Of a DNA stretch of 64,000 nt, positions 13,087 through 40,746 are shown in pieces. The notes under the pieces are model-generated. The model saw only the letters and a list, made by a program, of their open reading frames with translations, had not been told where the DNA came from and made no database searches. This DNA comes from Sporichthya polymorpha DSM 43042 (GTDB lineage: Bacteria > Actinomycetota > Actinomycetes > Sporichthyales > Sporichthyaceae), in NCBI RefSeq assembly GCF_000384115.1, contig NZ_KB913029.1, forward strand, positions 592,907 to 656,906, written 5' to 3'. Positions within the stretch are counted from its first letter, which is position 1, and each line of letters starts with the position of its first letter. The position numbers and the translations under genes are program-made.

Positions 13087-13132
13087 GGTGGAGCTGAGGG
13101 GATTTGAACCCCTGGCCCCCTCGTTGCGAACG
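13087..13132. repeat. attL: 46-bp copy of the tRNA-Ala 3' half
   Basis: These 46 bases are identical to 21537-21582, which form the anticodon-loop-to-3'-end half of the intact tRNA-Ala. The match stops abruptly on both sides (13086 and 13133 differ). A tyrosine integrase begins 164 bp inside. This is the standard footprint of site-specific integration into a tRNA 3' end. Confidence 0.92.
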
Positions 13133-13252
13133 GGAGGTCGCTGTCCGATCCGAGCGCTGGACGTAGGGATCTTGAGCGGTATAATTGCAGCTCAGGTACG
13201 GTTTTACGTCCGCAGTCATCCACCGGGGTCCGGGGCAGTCCACTCGCAATTC

Positions 13253-13271
13253 TGCTGACAAACTGCTGACA
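13253..13271. promoter_or_regulatory. Paired direct repeat TGCTGACA upstream of integrase 1
   Basis: TGCTGACA-AAC-TGCTGACA: two identical 8-mers on an 11-bp (one helical turn) period, ending 24 bases before the integrase ATG. The same motif with one base changed lies at the same distance before the second integrase (43926-43944). Candidate integrase arm site or autoregulatory operator. Confidence 0.55.
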
Positions 13272-13295
13272 CGCGATCTTGGGGAGGATCGTCGG

Positions 13296-14747
13296 ATGGG
13301 GTGGGTTCGCGAGCGCGCCGGACGCGATAACAAGAAGCGCTTCATCGCCGTCTACCGCGACGTGCGCGGCAACGAGCGCTCCGCCGGCACGTACCGGACC
13401 GAGCGGGAGGCAGTGCGGGCGTGGCACGAGGCCGAGCAGAACCTCTCGCTCGGTCAGGTCGACGACCCAAAGCGCGGTCGCCAAACGCTGGCCCGCTACG
13501 TCGAGGCGGAATGGTTTCCCAACCACGTCATCGAAGCCACCACCCGGGAGAACTACCGCTACCTACTCAATCGGTACGTGCTGCCCGGGCTCGGCCACCT
13601 GCGCATGGTGGAGCTGCTGCCGTTCCATGTCCGGGAGTGGATTGCCGAGCTGCAGTCCACCTACGGCGCGCGGCCCCCGACTGTGCGCGAGGCGAAGGTC
13701 GTCCTGGACGCCATCCTGACCACGGCGCTCAACGACCGGGTCGTGCTCATCCACGCCGGCCGCGGCGTGAAGACTCCCCCGGTCGCCCGGAAGCTGCGTC
13801 GCATCATCACCGTCGAGCAGTACAACGCGATCTACGCCGCGCTCCAGGACGACACGATGCGCCTGCTGGTCGAGACGAAGATCGAGACCGGGCTGCGATG
13901 GGGAGAGCTGACCGAGCTTCGGCCTCGCGACCTCGACCCAAAGACGCGTGTCCTCACTGTCTCGCGCGCGGTCGTCGAGCTGAAGGCGAAGGACCGGCCC
14001 GAGGGAGTCCGGTTCGTCGTGAAGGACTACCCGAAGGACAAGGAGTGGCGACAACTCGGCCTGACCGGACGCCTCGCCGACCAGATCCAGTTGCACGTCA
14101 AGCAGCGCAAGCTCAGACGAGACGACCTGCTGTTCCCGTGCCCCGCACCGGCCGAAGCGCCATACCGCCGGCCCGAGCAGCTCCCGGCCCCCGAGACGTT
14201 GGGGCTGACCGAGCCAAACCAGAGGGGCCGGCAGTACCACCACGGCACCCTCACCGCCTACCAGGCCGCTCCGTGCCGATGCCGACACTGCAAGGACGCC
14301 GTCGCCGCCTACCGCGCCGCGCGCCGAGCCGTTGGCAAGGACCGCCCGCGCCGCCCCCGAGCGGTTCGCACCGACGGGCACATCCCCAACCGCTGGTTCC
14401 GGGCGCGCGTCTGGGATCCGGCGCTCGAAGCAGCCGAGCTTGGGTTCCACGTGACACCCCACGGCCTGCGCCACGCTCACGCCTCCTGGCTGCTAGCCGG
14501 CGGAGCGGACCTGCAGGTCGTCAAGGAGCGACTTGGCCACGGGAGCATCGCCACGACCGGCAAGTACCTCCACGCGCTGCCCGGCGCCGACCAAGCTGCC
14601 TTCGAAGCGCTGGACGCGTTCCGCTCGCGCCCCGCCACGACCGGTCAGGCACCCCCTTCGGACCATCGAGGCGAACTCGCCGAGATGCGTGACCTCGCCG
14701 CCCGGTTACACAGGATGCTCGAAGCGAACGGCGAGGCGGCCACCTGA
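13296..14747 (+). CDS. int: Tyrosine integrase of the tRNA-Ala element (483 aa)
   Basis: A site-specific recombinase that should act on the 46-bp att core. An N-terminal AP2-like arm-binding segment ([20 protein letters not shown]) is followed by the SAM-like core-binding domain (about residues 65-160) and the catalytic domain. Catalytic residues are visible: Arg in [11 protein letters not shown], HxxR in HGLRHAHAS, the second His in LGHGS and the nucleophilic Tyr in TTGKYLHAL. An insertion near residue 335 holds a Cys cluster (CRCRHCKDA), possibly zinc-binding. The ATG at 13296 matches the start of the homologous integrase at 43969 and leaves the paired TGCTGACA repeat upstream. The protein looks intact. 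Confidence 0.93.
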
Positions 14748-15071: not shown

Positions 15072-16040
15072 CTAGCGGAAGGCGCCCTGGCGAACAGCGA
15101 GCGGGGATTTTCCTAGCCTGCGCTGCACGAGGCGACGTAGCGCCGTCGCGTTGGCGAAACCGACCCGGGCGGCGACCGCCTCGACGCTGAGGCCGGTCGA
15201 TCGCAACAGGTGGACGGCCTCATCGAGACGCACGTCGTTCACGAACTCGAGCGGAGACATTCCGAGCGAACTGTCGGTGATTCGTTGCAGGGTACGTTCG
15301 GAGACACCGATGCTCGCTGCGGCGACACCGATGCGGATCGGCTGGTCCAGGTGAGCCCTGACCCAACGTTCGAAGGCCGACAACTCAGGATTATGACGGG
15401 CCATCACGGCTGGCATCGCGAACCCCGCTTGGGACGCCCGGTCACCGATCAGAAGATAGCGCGCGACCAGGTCAGCCAGTACCGGACTGCGTTGATGCAC
15501 CAACGACAGAGCCAGGTCGATGTGGGCGAAAGCGGCTCCGGCCGTGCGGACACCCCGACCGAAGACCAGCGTCTCAGCGACGTCGAGTTCCACGGTCGGG
15601 AAGTACTCCCGGAACAACGGGCCGAGCCACCAGCTCGTAGTCGCCGGCTGGCCGTCCAGGATGCCCGCCTGGGCCATGAGCAGTGTTCCGCTGCAAGCGC
15701 CGACCACCTCGGCCCCCAGCCCACCGGCTGCGGCTATAGCCGCAACGGAAGGACGGAGCACCTTGGATCGGGTGTCCTCAATCAGCTGCGCCGGGCTGCG
15801 CAGGCCCAAGGCCGGTACAACGACGACATCGGCCGCGTCTGCTGAAGCGATGGGCACGGTCGTGACCCGCAATCCCGCAGCGGTGTGCATTTGACGCCGC
15901 GTTCCAACCACCGTCACCGACCACTCGGTGGGCGCCTGAGGCACCTCACCGCGCAGCGCGTTGGCCGCGGCGAGGACATCGCACACAGCGGCCAGGCTGG
16001 AGTCCCAGACTCCGTCCGCCATGAGCACCCACACCCGCAT
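15072..16040 (-). CDS. GlxA-family regulator: DJ-1/PfpI domain plus AraC HTH (322 aa)
   Basis: Residues about 1-185 form a class-I amidotransferase-like (DJ-1/PfpI) ligand-sensing domain, with Cys in the nucleophile-elbow position VVGACSGTLLMAQ. Residues about 215-320 form two AraC helix-turn-helices (IGVAAASIGVSERTLQRITD and LSVEAVAARVGFANATALRR). Start ATG at 16040 (MRVWVLMADGVWDSS); an ATG 30 bases upstream is possible. Family members regulate genes for carnitine, choline or other small molecules, and many are uncharacterised. It is divergent from the secreted hydrolase over about 200 bp, so it probably controls that gene (inference). Both lie inside the tRNA-Ala element as cargo. Confidence 0.88.
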   Translation of the reverse strand: MRVWVLMADGVWDSSLAAVCDVLAAANALRGEVPQAPTEWSVTVVGTRRQMHTAAGLRVTTVPIASADAADVVVVPALGLRSPAQLIEDTRSKVLRPSVAAIAAAGGLGAEVVGACSGTLLMAQAGILDGQPATTSWWLGPLFREYFPTVELDVAETLVFGRGVRTAGAAFAHIDLALSLVHQRSPVLADLVARYLLIGDRASQAGFAMPAVMARHNPELSAFERWVRAHLDQPIRIGVAAASIGVSERTLQRITDSSLGMSPLEFVNDVRLDEAVHLLRSTGLSVEAVAARVGFANATALRRLVQRRLGKSPLAVRQGAFR

Positions 16041-16242
16041 GGCGCCAACCGTACTGCCGATCATGTGCATTGCATCTGTCGGATTTCGATCGAAACACGT
16101 CGGATCCGACGCTCGTGCCGAAGAGCTCACGCTACGTACAGTTGCGTGTCGCTGTTCAGCGATCCGGCCGGGGGCCCCCAACATTTCCCGGCCTATCCTC
16201 TGCGCGGATGCCGCCACATCCTCCCGATCGAAAGGCGCATCC

Positions 16243-17286
16243 ATGCGTGTCCGCACTCTGCTCTCGAGCACCCTCGCCGCGGTGGTGATTGGCGCCCTGT
16301 TCACCGCACCGGCCTCGGCAGCGCCGGACAACGACGTCGTTCAGATGCCGGTCAGCTTCAAGGTGACGAACACCAATACGAGCGCCCTTCCGTGCAGTAG
16401 CGACGGCAAGAACTACACAGTCAACGGCGTCGTCGTCGGCCCACGCAACGCGATCGCTGCTGGCAGGGCCGCCACGTTGTACCTGCACGCCGTCACCTGG
16501 GGCGCGTACTACTTCAACCTCAACATCCCTGGTCACAACTACGCACACGAGATGGCCAAGCGCGGCCATGTCTCGGTCCTCGTCGACCGCTTGGGGTACG
16601 GCAGCAGCGGTAAGCCGGCTGGCTTCGGCACGTGCTTCGGCTCAGAAGCCGACGTCGCCCATCAGATGGTCGACCAGCTCAGGTCCGGTGCCTACACGCT
16701 CAAGGGCGCGAAGAAGACCCCCGCCTACCACAAGGTCTTCATCTCCGGCTCCTCCGTGGGAGGCCTGATCTCCAACGTTGTTGCCTACAGCTACGGCAAT
16801 GTCGACGGCGTGTTCAACCAGTCCTGGGGCGACTTCACCGCCGGCCCCTACACCGGCGCGGAATCCGCGAGCATCGTCGCGCGCTGCTCTGCCGGCGGCG
16901 ACGCCGGCGCCCCGCCGTACTACGCCCAATTCGCCAAGGACTCCCGCGACACCTTCTACTTCAACGACGCGAGCCCGGACGTCCGCGCTGCCGTGCCCCC
17001 ATCGCAGCCCGACCCCTGCGGTCAGTTCGAATCGGTCGCCGCCGGGATCGGCGCGGACCTCGCTCACCTCGGCGAGATCGACGTCCCGGTTCTCGTCATG
17101 TTCGGCACGGGTGAGGTCGTCTTCCCGCAGCCGCCGTCAGCTGACCAGATGGCCGCTCGGTATTCGGGCAGTCCGAAGGTCACCAAGCTGATCATCGACG
17201 GCGCTTCGCACTATCCGATCGTCGAGCAGGGTTTTCCCCAGATGGTCGAGGGCGCTGATCGCTGGCTGAACGAGAACGGCGGCTGA
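16243..17286 (+). CDS. Secreted alpha/beta hydrolase (347 aa)
   Basis: A Sec signal peptide is clear: MRVRTLLSSTLAAVV, a hydrophobic core and an A-S-A-A cleavage region near residue 28. The mature part is an alpha/beta hydrolase with the nucleophile elbow SGSSVGGLIS (about residue 170), an acid candidate in VLVMFGTGEVVF and a His in GASHYPIVEQ near the C terminus. It should be an extracellular esterase or lipase-like enzyme; the substrate is unknown. The ATG at 16243 is preceded by GAAAGG. A 10-bp-stem terminator follows at 17303. It pairs with the divergent GlxA-type regulator as element cargo. Nothing looks broken. Confidence 0.86.
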   Translation: MRVRTLLSSTLAAVVIGALFTAPASAAPDNDVVQMPVSFKVTNTNTSALPCSSDGKNYTVNGVVVGPRNAIAAGRAATLYLHAVTWGAYYFNLNIPGHNYAHEMAKRGHVSVLVDRLGYGSSGKPAGFGTCFGSEADVAHQMVDQLRSGAYTLKGAKKTPAYHKVFISGSSVGGLISNVVAYSYGNVDGVFNQSWGDFTAGPYTGAESASIVARCSAGGDAGAPPYYAQFAKDSRDTFYFNDASPDVRAAVPPSQPDPCGQFESVAAGIGADLAHLGEIDVPVLVMFGTGEVVFPQPPSADQMAARYSGSPKVTKLIIDGASHYPIVEQGFPQMVEGADRWLNENGG

Positions 17287-17302
17287 CACCGACGTCGGAG
17301 GT

Positions 17303-17329
17303 GGGCGCCGGTACACGTGACCGGCGCCC
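17303..17329 (+). terminator. Hairpin terminator after the secreted hydrolase
   Basis: GGGCGCCGGT (17303-17312) and ACCGGCGCCC (17320-17329) form a perfect 10-bp stem with a 7-base loop, 14 bases after the stop codon. There is no T tract, which is common in actinobacterial terminators. Confidence 0.65.
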
Positions 17330-17468
17330 TCCCGATCCGAATCGGAGCGATCCTGCCCGACACTGCTGACCCGTGAATGAATCTGCGGGAGGCGTGCGGC
17401 AGCGTCCGGGCGCAGCCCGGACACGTTCTTGGCGGTCCCGTGCTGCCCCGGGATGTCCGAGACGATGG

Positions 17469-18630
17469 TCAGGCGCTCTGGTCGAGGGTGACGGTGTGGC
17501 CGAGGCGTTCGAGCTGCGCCACCAGCCGGCGGATGCGGATCTCGGGGTCGATCGGGCGGGTGAAAGTAGTCCGCGCCGAGATCGCGGTAGGGCTCGTCGC
17601 GTTCGAGCATGTAGTAGGCCGCCACGAGCATCGAGTGCGCGACGGCGACGATCGCGCGTTTGGCGCCGCGGCGTGGAGCGAGGTGGCGGTATTGGGCGCC
17701 GAGGTAGTTCGTCTTCATCCGCGACGCTGAGCCGGCGGCCTCGACCAGCGCCGAGGCCAGCCACTTGTTGCCCTTGCGGGAGCCCATCGACCAGGCCTTG
17801 CCGGCGGACTCGTGCACCGACGGGGCGGGCCCGGCCCAGGCGGCCAGGTGCGCCGCCGAGGGGAAGCGGGACATGTCCGCACCGGTCTCAGCGATGATCA
17901 CCTCGGCGGTCTTGACCCCGATCCCGGGCATGGTCTGCAACAGCTCGAACTGGTGGCGCCACGGGGCGATCTCGTCGAGGATCTGCGCGTCGCAGGCCTT
18001 CAGCGACGCCTCGACCTGGGCCAGTCGCTGCAGCATCCCGCCGACGAGCAGGGCGTGGTGATCATCGAAGCGCCCGAGCAGGGACTCGGCCAGCTCGCTC
18101 TTGCGGTTGCGCAGCTTGGAATAGGCCAGATCCGCCATCACGTCGGGGTCGCGTTCCCCGGCCACCAGCGCGGTCAGCATCGCCCGCGCCGAGGAACCGG
18201 CGATGTTCGACACCACCGCGCGGAGAGCTTGATCGAGGCGTCCTCGAGCAGCTTCTCCACCCGGGTGACCTCACGGGTCCGATCACCCATCAGCTGGACC
18301 CGATACCGAGTGAGGTTGCGCAGCCGGCGGATCTCTGGCGGCGGCACGAACGAGGGCGTGACCAGGCCGTGCTCGACCAGCCGGGCGATCCATTCGGCGT
18401 CGCGGACGTCGGACTTACGCCCCGGGACGGCCTTGATGTGGGCGGCGTTGAGCAGCCAGGTCTCCATCACCTCCTCCAGGCAATAGAACGGCGGCTTCCA
18501 ATAGGTCGCGGTCGATTCCATCGCAGCCAGCTCGACCCCGCTCTCGACCAGCCACGCCGCCATGGCCTGAATCTGGCGCGTCATCGTGGAGTAGGTGCGC
18601 ACCTCGTTCGTGCGCGAGCGCCCTGAGATG
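17469..18630 (-). pseudogene. IS110-family transposase, decayed
   Basis: Pieces in three frames together make a nearly complete IS110 transposase. The first (18630 to about 18220) runs EVRTYSTMTRQIQAMAAWLV to KLLEDASIKLSA. A frameshift near 18220 moves to VVSNIAGSSARAMLTALVAG through ESAGKAWSMGSRKGNKW. A second frameshift near 17564 (DYF) is needed to read TRPIDPEIRIRRLVAQLERL up to a TGA at 17469. The N-terminal Asp block (GIDVHK in relatives) is missing. The DEDD-type Glu (AMESTATYW) and Asp (GRKSDVRDAEW) blocks and the C-terminal Ser region remain. It belongs to a different IS110 subgroup from the intact copy at 42581. It is inactive. Confidence 0.88.
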
Positions 18631-18639
18631 GACACAGAC

Positions 18640-19008
18640 CCACGTGCTCTACGGCAACAATCCGACGCTCCCGGAGACCCCGCGCCAGACTCGCTCTACG
18701 AGCTCGAATCGCAGCATCAGAGTGATAGCGACGTCGCCGGGCGACACCCCACCAGGATCCGCCCATCAGCACGGACCTCCCCGAACCGCCCCGGATCCCG
18801 GCGGACCACACAGGATCCTGACGGACAGTCAGACCGAATCCTGAGGACCGCCACCACCCACGCAGCCGCAAGCCGACCACACATTCTCAAGCCCCGACAC
18901 GGCGCCATCGAAGATCGCCACGCGTACTCATCTGGCACCAACGGTGATCGGCGTCGATCTCGGGGCCCGGAGCGCGCACATGTACGGCATGGGCGAGGTT
19001 CGGACGGG
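18640..19008. other. 369-bp gap between IS110 relic and relaxase
   Basis: I see no gene with convincing codon use, no RNA and no strong hairpin. A relaxase origin of transfer (oriT) would be expected near here, but no inverted repeat that I would call a nic region is visible. Confidence 0.4.
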
Positions 19009-21234
19009 ATGGCGGCGCAGCGCGTGATGTCGCTGTCGCGCCTGTCCGCGGGGGCCGGCTACAAGTACCTGCTTCGTCACACCGCCTGCGGCGACGCCTG
19101 CCGCGAAGCCGGATCTCCGCTGACTGGGTACTACGCAGCGTCCGGCTACCCGGTCGGGCGCTGGCACGGCCGCGGCTTGGTGGGGCTGGACGCCGGACGC
19201 GGGCTCGCGGCGGGAACTGCAGTCGCCGAAGAGGCGATGGCCGCGCTGTTCGGCACCGGCCACGACCCGGTCAACGGCGAAGCGCTCGGCCGTCCCTACC
19301 CGGCCTACCGCAACGTGGAAGGCCGGATTGCCGAAGCGCTTGCCGAACTCCCCGAATGCCTCAACACCGACGAACGGAACGCCCGGACCGCCGAGATCGA
19401 GACGACCGAGCGGGCCCGGCCGGTACGCACCGCCGTCGCCGGGTTCGACCTGACCTTCACGGTCCCCAAGTCCGCGAGCGTCCTGTGGGCTCTCGGCCAT
19501 CAGGATGTGCAGACCGCGGTGATGGAGGCGCACCGAGAGGCCGTGACCACCGTGCTCGATCTGATCGAAGAGCGCTTCCTGCACACCCGCGTGGGCCACG
19601 GCGGCTGCGCACAGGTCGGAACGCGCGGCATGATCGCGGCCGCATTTGACCACTGGGACACACGTACGGGCGATCCGAATCTGCACACCCACGTCGTCAT
19701 CGCCAACAAAGTCCAGGGCGCGGACGGCAAGTGGCGATCCGTGGACTCTCGCGCGCTGCATCACGCCGCCGTCGCACTGTCCGAGGTTTACGACGACCTG
19801 ATCGCCGATGCGATCTCGGCCCGCCTGCCGGTGGCGTGGTCCTGGCGCGACCGGGGCGAACGCCGCTCGCCCGCGTTCGAGATCGCCGGCCTACCGGACG
19901 AGCTGCTCGCCGTGTTCTCGACCCGTTCCGGGCAGATCGCCGCAGCCATGCAGCACCTGATCGCCGACTTCCGAATGCGCCACGACCGGGATCCCAACCG
20001 TCGCGAGATCCTGCGACTCCGCCAGCAAGCCACGCTGGCCACCCGACCGGACAAGACGGTGAGACCGCTCGGCGAACTCATCGGACGCTGGCGGACCACC
20101 GCGACCGACCTCACCAAGCGGACTCCTGAGCAGATCGTCGCCGCCGCCTTGCAAGTCCACCCGCATGCTCCGGCACCGGCCGTCGACGCACTTGCGCAGT
20201 TCGCCCTGGCCGCGGTCGTTGAGCGACGCTCGACGTGGACGCGCGCGAACCTGCTCGCGGAGGCCGCCCGGGCTTCCCGCCAGGTGCGCACGCCCGACCC
20301 GGCCGCGCGCGTCGCGCTGCTCGATCGGATCGTGGAGGCAGCCGTCGGGAAATGCGTCGCGCTCGATCCACCCGAGCTGTTCGACGTCCCCCACCGCTTC
20401 CGGCGGCCGGACGGCTCCAGCCTCTTCGCCCGCCCGGCCGAGCACGCGTACACGGCGATCGCCGTACTGGAAGCCGAAGACCGCCTCGTGGCCGCCACCG
20501 ACACCCTGGAGGCTCCGGCGGTCCACGCTGACGCGCTGACGCCGGTGCTCACCGCCGCCGCGCTCGGCATGCCGGGCGCGCGCGGTCTGACCGCCGATCA
20601 GGCCGGCGCCGTCGCGGCGATCGCGAGCTCGGGGCGCCTCCTGGACGTTCTCGTCGGCCCGGCCGGATCGGGCAAGACGCGCGCTCTGCGCGCGCTGCGG
20701 TCGGCGTGGGAGAACGTGCACGGACCGGGCAGCGTCCTGTGGGCCCTCGTCCGCACCATCCTCGAGTACTTCGATCCGACTCTGGCATACACGACCCAAG
20801 TCACGTGGAAGGACGGTGCGGGGTACCTCAACGTTCTGTACAAGACCCTGCCCCGCACCGAGCACTCGCAGGTTCAGTTCGCCTTGGTGTACGACGGCGA
20901 TCAGCGTCCGTCGTCCACCCCCGCGGAGGACCCAAACAGGCAGAACTGGCCGAAGCTCTATCTGCCCGGCGCGGTGAGCCCGGACGCACTCTTGCGAACC
21001 ACACGGACGAAACCGGATGCACCCGCCGCCGCACTCGGAAGCGACCCCACGACGCTGAAGGTCGCTCTCAGTGCTCTCGAGGGCATCGATGACCATGATT
21101 GGGTGGACCGTCTTTGTGCCCAGTACGGGCCGCGCGCAGGCTCCCTTCGTGCGTTGTGTCGACTGTGGGTGCAGCAAAACGAGTCCGCGGCATTCGCCTT
21201 CTACCAAGATGTCCGCGGGGCCAGCCCTACGTAA
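19009..21234 (+). CDS. MobF/TraA-type relaxase with truncated helicase and foreign C terminus (741 aa)
   Basis: Residues 1 to about 310 are a TrwC/MobF relaxase. MSLSRLSAGAGYKYLLRHTA carries candidate nucleophilic Tyr, TVPKSASVLWALG is the typical core, and HWDTRTGDPNLHTHVVIAN at about 214-232 gives the three-His metal site. A RecD-like helicase then begins, with Walker A VGPAGSGKTRALRAL near residue 550. About 20 residues later, after HGPGSV (nt about 20737), the sequence stops matching a helicase and becomes an unrelated tail of about 165 residues (WALVRTILEYFDPTLAY onwards, containing FALVYDGDQ). Walker B and later helicase motifs are absent. Conjugative relaxases are normally 1000 residues or more. 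ATG 19009 chosen; GTG 19024 or ATG 19027 are alternatives. Confidence 0.82.
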   Translation: MAAQRVMSLSRLSAGAGYKYLLRHTACGDACREAGSPLTGYYAASGYPVGRWHGRGLVGLDAGRGLAAGTAVAEEAMAALFGTGHDPVNGEALGRPYPAYRNVEGRIAEALAELPECLNTDERNARTAEIETTERARPVRTAVAGFDLTFTVPKSASVLWALGHQDVQTAVMEAHREAVTTVLDLIEERFLHTRVGHGGCAQVGTRGMIAAAFDHWDTRTGDPNLHTHVVIANKVQGADGKWRSVDSRALHHAAVALSEVYDDLIADAISARLPVAWSWRDRGERRSPAFEIAGLPDELLAVFSTRSGQIAAAMQHLIADFRMRHDRDPNRREILRLRQQATLATRPDKTVRPLGELIGRWRTTATDLTKRTPEQIVAAALQVHPHAPAPAVDALAQFALAAVVERRSTWTRANLLAEAARASRQVRTPDPAARVALLDRIVEAAVGKCVALDPPELFDVPHRFRRPDGSSLFARPAEHAYTAIAVLEAEDRLVAATDTLEAPAVHADALTPVLTAAALGMPGARGLTADQAGAVAAIASSGRLLDVLVGPAGSGKTRALRALRSAWENVHGPGSVLWALVRTILEYFDPTLAYTTQVTWKDGAGYLNVLYKTLPRTEHSQVQFALVYDGDQRPSSTPAEDPNRQNWPKLYLPGAVSPDALLRTTRTKPDAPAAALGSDPTTLKVALSALEGIDDHDWVDRLCAQYGPRAGSLRALCRLWVQQNESAAFAFYQDVRGASPT

Positions 21235-21536: not shown

Positions 21537-21582
21537 GGTGGAGCTGAGGGGATTTGAACCCCTGGCCCCCTCGTTGCGAACG
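21537..21582. repeat. attR: 46-bp direct repeat inside tRNA-Ala
   Basis: Identical to 13087-13132 and covering the 3' half of the intact tRNA-Ala from the anticodon loop to just past the discriminator base. The tRNA 5' half continues only on this side, so this is the end that keeps the tRNA functional. Confidence 0.92.
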
Positions 21583-21612
21583 AGGTGCGCTACCGGACTG
21601 CGCCACAGCCCC
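21539..21612 (-). tRNA. tRNA-Ala, anticodon CGC
   Basis: On the minus strand the acceptor GGGGCTG (21612-21606) pairs with CAGCTCC (21546-21540), with A as discriminator. The G3-U70 wobble that specifies alanine is present. The anticodon stem-loop reads CTCGT-TCGCAAC-GAG with CGC as anticodon, and the T-arm contains GGTTCAAATCC. Length is 74 with no encoded CCA. It is the integration target of the element on its downstream side. Confidence 0.95.
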
Positions 21613-22057
21613 CGAAGTGCGGAGAAAGATTATCACTGGCCCCCGGGTGGTCGACGCGGGCCGGACCCCGGGGCGCGGGGCTCATCTTCTCCGGCGCGGC
21701 GCGCCTATCCCGGGGCCGCGATAGGCGCGCCAGGCCGCAGAAGTTGCGGCGCGGCCTCATCTTCTTCGGCGCGGGGCGCCTATCCGGGGGCCGGGATAGG
21801 CGCGCCAGGTAGGAGAAGTTGCGAACCCGACCGGGCAACCCAGGCCGGCCGGACCGCCGGGGGCGGGCCTCATCTTCTCCTGCGCGGGGCGCCTATCCGA
21901 CCCGGTAGATAGGCGCGCCAGGCAGGAGAGTCGAGGCGGGTGCTCGTCTTCTGCGGCGCGGGGCGCCTATCCCGGGGCCGGGATGGGCGCGCCAGGCTGG
22001 AGAAGTTGCGAACAAGGCGGCCCGGCGAACCACGCGGCCGGGCGGGCGAGGCGGGAA
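21613..22057. other. 445-bp non-coding spacer filled by the hairpin repeats
   Basis: Between the tRNA-Ala 5' end and the stop of the SepX/GLPR gene there is no protein gene. The spacer consists mainly of the four hairpin units described separately, with GC-rich linkers. Confidence 0.75.
21683..22010. repeat. Four tandem copies of a 66-bp hairpin unit
   Basis: Units lie at 21683-21748, 21758-21823, 21871-21935 and 21945-22010. Each has the plan CTTCT, variable GC-rich bases, GGCGCCTATC, a 10-base loop, GATAGGCGCGCC, variable bases, AGAAG. The inner stem is 11-13 bp in every copy; copy 4 has GGATGGG, a wobble-compatible change. The outer arms vary, and in copy 3 (TCTCCTGC with GCAGGAGA) the variation stays paired. 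The copies form two pairs (start-to-start 75 and 74 bp) repeated at a 188-bp period. All point the same way, in the spacer upstream of tRNA-Ala and downstream of the SepX/GLPR gene. REP-like element, processing or terminator array, or structured RNA are the options. Confidence 0.85.
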
Positions 22058-40582: not shown

Positions 40583-40655
40583 GCCCTCGTAGCTCAGGGG
40601 ATAGAGCACCGCTCTCCTAAAGCGGGTGTCCGCAGTTCGAATCTGCGCGGGGGCA
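40583..40655 (+). tRNA. tRNA-Arg, anticodon CCT
   Basis: The acceptor GCCCTCG pairs with CGGGGGC (one U-G pair), with discriminator A at 40655. The D-arm contains AGCTCAGGGGATAGAGC, the anticodon loop CTCCTAA gives CCT, and the T-arm contains GTTCGAATC. Length is 73, no encoded CCA. A tyrosine integrase starts 91 bp downstream, so the 3' end is a likely attachment site, but I found no second copy of it in the window. Confidence 0.96.
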
Positions 40656-40746
40656 CGCCAACTGACCTGCGGTTTTCCACTCCCGAAGTTCACCAAGCCA
40701 GGCCGCATGGCATGAAACGTGGCATGAACTGTCGTAACCTGCAGAG

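Follow-up and report, generated by a model that had tools for sequence, protein, structure and literature searches.

Relaxases of the MobF/TrwC family (for example, TrwC of R388, TraI of F and the actinobacterial MobF proteins) join a TrwC domain, with its HTH histidines and paired tyrosines, through a linker to an SF1 helicase with Walker A. The gene described here, from Sporichthya polymorpha DSM 43042, shares all of these features, whereas its helicase is lost after Walker A and an unrelated tail stands in its place. That tail corresponds to the C-terminal piece, with its DGD motif, of OLD-family and Gabija GajA-like ATPase-Toprim proteins, although the fusion is without their ATPase domain, the first Toprim strand and the glutamate of that strand. 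In Thermus OLD, metal A is described as bound by E377, D431 and D433, and activity on DNA fell 12- to 15-fold in the triple mutant of these residues (PMC7049728). For TrwC, unwinding is reported to be required for conjugation, whereas site-specific integration can do without it and needs no more than the N-terminal 450 residues (PMC6049929).

The same report describes a TrwC/Rep68 chimera that likewise unites a relaxase domain with a foreign C-terminal domain; that protein, however, was made in the laboratory and its partner is a working helicase, whereas the partner centre of the present fusion is incomplete (PMC6049929). Among titles and abstract openings in the literature, we found no natural relaxase–Toprim fusion, nor any natural relaxase fusion in integrative elements. 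The T4SS-type integrative and conjugative elements of actinobacteria, as outlined in PMC3218068, have in common with our locus a tyrosine integrase, an attachment site at a tRNA 3′ end and a MobF relaxase; by comparison, the island here measures just 8.45 kb, its relaxase is truncated and neither a coupling protein nor a transfer ATPase was recognized.

A reduced island at tRNA-Ala(CGC)

In the window (that is, the whole stretch of 64,000 nucleotides that was analysed), the fusion gene lies on an integrated island of 8,450 bp with an exact 46-bp repeat of tRNA-Ala(CGC) at its two ends. The tRNA gene, the integration target, occupies 21537–21612 on the minus strand and holds one attachment copy (21537–21582), and the other, an exact duplicate of the tRNA 3′ end, stands at 13087–13132. 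Beside the latter runs a tyrosine integrase ORF (13185–14747, plus strand, start codon unsettled; PF00589, E = 2.5e-18, and PF14659), followed by two cargo genes, a GlxA/AraC-type regulator with DJ-1/PfpI and HTH_18 domains (15072–16331, minus strand, start uncertain) and an alpha/beta hydrolase (16231–17286, plus strand; PF12146), and by an IS110-family transposase that is spread over two frames (17137–18635, minus strand; DEDD half at 18174–18635, Transposase_20 half at 17137–18216). The fusion gene comes last, at the tRNA end of the island, and ends about 300 bp from the tRNA. A gene that we named by eye as enoyl-CoA hydratase-like flanks the island on the left, and in another genome of the same genus (G002) the end of this gene and the tRNA are immediate neighbours, which is the empty site. 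The island thus has the integrase, the attachment repeat at a tRNA 3′ end and the empty site in a relative by which an integrative element is recognized.

Among the ORFs read or scanned between 13.1 and 21.5 kb, none encodes a coupling protein or a T4SS ATPase. A reduced island with a fusion at its tRNA end, a two-frame IS110 transposase and no transfer genes seen is the setting of a decaying element and, given that the relaxase helicase is lost as well, such an island should not transfer itself. The same tRNA is occupied in a genome of another family (G191), in which a gene of MrcB_N/NO VEIN type is followed by a decayed ATPase-Toprim remnant (L009, 5472–8529) that adjoins tRNA-Ala(CGC) and the gene that also forms the right flank in the window. 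This makes tRNA-Ala(CGC) a site at which defence-type cargo has integrated repeatedly.

Two further features of the window were recorded. Between tRNA-Ala and the next gene (21667–22013) an 85-bp unit, which has a palindrome around GGCGCCTATC...GATAGGCGCGCC, is present in four copies separated by spacers; the 15-mer GATAGGCGCGCCAGG has eight occurrences in the host genome, all of them on the same strand in the numbering used, and a single one in each of G001 and G002. From tRNA-Arg(CCT) at 40583–40656 onwards, G+C falls from about 0.71–0.73 to 0.66–0.71 for the rest of the window, which holds no repeat of at least 14 bp of the 3′ end of that tRNA.

The relaxase half

The fusion ORF spans 18595–21234 on the plus strand (879 codons), and comparison with paralogues places the natural start of the relaxase at the ATG at 19009 or 19027. 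The part from 19009 to 20736 comprises the HUH domain, the linker and Walker A, and keeps about 570 relaxase residues. It matches the TrwC profile PF08751 over 285 of 286 profile positions (E = 5.8e-85) and scores 236 bits against the MobF profile NF041492, for which the cut-off is 100. A TrwC-type HUH relaxase domain with HxH and tyrosines, the hallmark of MobF proteins, is therefore present, and Y14, Y35, Y36, H220 and H222 (numbered from 19027) are invariant in the relaxase alignment; the catalytic tyrosine is presumably among these three.

Of the 393 genomes searched in the class, 133 have a match to this relaxase, and only the best matches were turned into loci (36 rows representing 31 distinct places, as five loci are duplicates). 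The host genome itself contains several further relaxase–helicase copies; two were retrieved, one long and open and one in two pieces; the host MobF relaxase L043 (G000:C1:375143-378128) is matched in two pieces. Using 29 of the 31 relaxases (L041 and L043 did not fit and were omitted), we identified 73 columns that are invariant in the 29 others; the fusion is changed at none of them, and the 29 relaxases themselves show 0 to 4 changes each. A narrower test, in which a narrow pattern drew on 12 of the 31 relaxases, gave three changed columns in the relaxase part and six past its end, and is superseded by the wider one. The absence of damage in this half means either that the event was recent or that nicking still works. 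By analogy with characterized relaxases, the domain may still recognize its origin and nick and join DNA, whereas, from the known biochemistry of TrwC and OLD proteins, the fusion should not drive transfer.

The helicase ends just after Walker A

The Walker A motif GPAGSGKT (20656–20679, plus strand) is followed by 19 residues of normal relaxase sequence to HGPGSV, which ends at 20736, and homology changes abruptly at 20737. The profile AAA_30 matches the fusion only at its positions 2–46 of 191, so the helicase is cut just after Walker A. After the end of the P-loop, all 36 relaxase rows stay in helicase sequence, typically beginning [VI]GLAPS, and a Walker-B-like motif ([VIL][VIL].DEA) follows within 130 residues in 35 of them, the exception (L029) being frame-broken; the same motif scan found none in the fusion tail. 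Of the C-terminal SF1 helicase of MobF proteins, with Walker A, Walker B and later motifs, Walker A alone is left. The initial annotation had placed the switch at HGPGSV and described a helicase cut behind Walker A with a motif-free tail of about 165 residues; profile matches and the 36-row comparison agree with both points. Near the island, no stray helicase part was found.

The junction stretch AGCGTCCTGTGGGCCCTCGTCC (20731–20752, plus strand) is itself similar to a segment of the relaxase N-terminal part, being identical at 20 of 22 positions to 19477–19498 (SVLWAL codons), a likeness that none of 7,256 control 22-mers from 24–64 kb equalled. Six of the 22 bases are native relaxase sequence, and the remaining 16-mer matches at 14 of 16 positions, a value that 71 of 11,400 controls (about 0.6%) also reach. 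The stretch could be accounted for by repair that copied in a short templated insert, for which the likeness is suggestive but not more; it may also be due to chance. No long repeat was found at the junction.

Identity of the tail

The tail (20737–21234, plus strand) runs for 165 residues in frame with the relaxase and without helicase motifs. Searched alone it matched no Pfam, NCBIfam or PADLOC model, and its predicted structure (pLDDT 59.3, pTM 0.52) was too weak for a structure search; these were the profile and structure tests that the initial annotation had proposed. The tail is nevertheless homologous to the C termini of AAA ATPases (30% over 156 residues, E = 8e-13), which marks it as a piece of a real protein and not a chance open frame. 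(A random run of 165 codons with this composition stays open with a probability of about 0.011, and the homology excludes this explanation in any case.) It ends approximately where its ATPase relatives end and keeps an open frame with conserved DGD and LPG motifs, the DGD being invariant in five of five rows (that is, the tail and four relatives), as expected of Toprim DxD and C-terminal homology. Homology and motifs identify the tail as the C terminus, with Toprim residues, of an AAA ATPase of the OLD/GajA-like kind, and the earlier suggestion of an ATPase/TOPRIM-type C terminus was well founded.

The ATPase sequence is entered after the Toprim glutamate. In all four aligned relatives an ED that opens the Toprim centre lies just upstream of the matched region, at a place where the fusion has relaxase residues, and in the donor-type protein P0003 this glutamate precedes the DGD by 54 residues, the E377–D431 spacing of Thermus OLD as given in PMC7049728. 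The N-terminal ABC-type ATPase that is present in P0003 and L011 is likewise absent from the fusion. The junction takes away the first Toprim strand and with it the metal-binding glutamate, so that nuclease activity of the tail is not expected; neither the helicase nor the Toprim nuclease of the fusion should work.

Relatives of the tail are rare: they were found in five other genomes (G034, G191, G196, G254 and G613) across overlapping sets, with one foreign match among 98 relatives (G034), four among 393 genomes of the class (G034, G191, G196 and G254), two among 396 genomes of the phylum (G034 and G613), and G191 alone among the 22 genomes of its own family. The relatives in the four genomes examined (G034, G191, G196 and G254) all belong to stand-alone ATPases or their remnants, and none to a relaxase. 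The homologue ends stand-alone ATPases of 674 and 492 residues in G034 and G196, and in G191 it belongs to a remnant with stops. The closest sequence (46%), from G254, is part of an AAA-Toprim ATPase gene (L008, 6623–9766) that is split in its Toprim part by a transposase-like insert; this gene overlaps a GmrSD_N (DUF262) gene by 4 bp, and a second OLD-like ATPase and methylase-like and nuclease-like genes, all three named by eye, lie in the neighbourhood. That the tail is foreign to relaxases, as first proposed, was borne out, and we reject the idea that it is a normal relaxase part: it occurs in none of the 36 relaxase rows and, G613 left out, in a relaxase of none of the genomes searched. 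The initial annotation had also asked whether other genomes share the junction; none of the genome, plasmid or phage records searched does, again with G613 left out.

Donor-type ATPases match the profiles AAA_21, HEC-04, GajA, OLD, PtuA and ATPase-Toprim_I-B, and simultaneous matches to so many such models point to membership of the wider group and not to any single named system. The best Foldseek match of the P0003 model (pLDDT 60.8) was the OLD nuclease 6p74 (E = 2.5e-10) with low TM-scores (0.20/0.25), and the VIA rows for P0003 covered model residues 154–461 only, the ATPase head, with 5xei as the best (Z 16.0, rmsd 4.5, 239 aligned). Assignment of the Toprim part is therefore based on sequence, motifs and profile matches and not on fold; P0003 found nothing below E = 0.07 among PDB sequences. 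A phage or plasmid gene as the source of the tail was considered and rejected, as the tail has no match in 50,697 phage records or 72,556 plasmid records. Pattern-based scans of viral_contigs and genome_contigs, sensitive to close relatives only, did not detect it; the L008 protein as query had no match in the genome_contigs scan or the plasmid records, and P0003 gave three weak partial matches to plasmids. A second trace of the ATPase family was not found in the host genome.

Origin of the fusion

We suggest that the fusion is probably a scar, left when a single chance deletion within a mobile element joined two genes of the same orientation. A relaxase gene and an ATPase gene would have resided on one element, and a single deletion would have removed the relaxase helicase after Walker A, the intervening DNA and the ATPase gene through the first residues past the Toprim glutamate, joining both reading frames by chance. 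If made, the product would be a relaxase domain able to nick its origin, without unwinding and without a working Toprim centre. The initial annotation considered an in-frame fusion unusual for random decay, a view that we do not support: with genes in the same orientation, one deletion in three stays in frame and no chance-defying event is needed. The sharp switch in homology at 20737, the lost Toprim glutamate with its OLD-like spacing to the DGD in P0003, the profile and Foldseek matches of the donor family, the island limits and empty site and the G191 remnant all favour a deletion scar, as do the failure to find a second trace of the ATPase family in the genome, a stray helicase part near the island or the junction in any other record searched. 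Counting against it, the relaxase half is without decay, as a recent event would explain but retained function would too; the tail keeps its open frame, DGD and LPG; and the resemblance of the junction stretch to the relaxase is not predicted by a simple two-ended deletion. The undeleted arrangement of relaxase plus ATPase was found in no genome searched, and the residence of both genes on one element is therefore our inference.

The two genes might instead have come from two elements, an ATPase element arriving at the tRNA first and the relaxase being brought alongside by a second element or a transposition before the deletion. The G191 relative, at the same tRNA and with no relaxase matched in the 14 kb read there, is consistent with such an order, which we nevertheless think unlikely given that the window has one attachment copy besides the tRNA, that no insertion-sequence end was recognized at 20737 and that a deletion is required here as well to make the frame. 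Far less probable is a working protein, with the ATPase C terminus standing in for the helicase and offering the nicking domain a new surface for DNA binding or a new partner, and with the island mobilized or integrated through helper functions of the intact MobF elements of the host genome. The unchanged 73 columns, the other helicase-bearing MobF relaxases of the host and the ability of TrwC to integrate by its N-terminal part without unwinding (PMC6049929) would all suit it, yet the Toprim centre is broken at the junction, no genome searched shares that junction, the tail is modelled at low confidence and third-position GC drops from 0.86 in the relaxase part to 0.77 in the tail. Its specific form, a natural relaxase with an OLD-type C terminus swapped in for the SF1 helicase that still nicks and joins while same-cell helpers move the island, we regard as highly improbable. 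A local assembly error that joined two real genes at about 20737 is the most doubtful account of all: the 20/22 relative of the junction stretch inside the relaxase is a repeat of the type that can confuse assembly, but the junction has no long repeat, the genome holds no further member of the ATPase family that could have been misjoined, and in another family an ATPase relative is found at this tRNA; furthermore, the host genome is a single contig of 5.5 Mb, which rules out a join between contigs.

Implications

Taken as the scar of a deletion, the fusion is most likely an ordinary product of decay and not a new kind of protein, and it illustrates that a single deletion, at the border of a reduced mobile element, is enough to produce an in-frame fusion whose two sides both hold ordered-looking segments. 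Should it work, the relaxase chimeras made in the laboratory would have a natural counterpart in it. The tRNA-Ala(CGC) locus carries, in two families of bacteria, remnants of one rare kind of ATPase.
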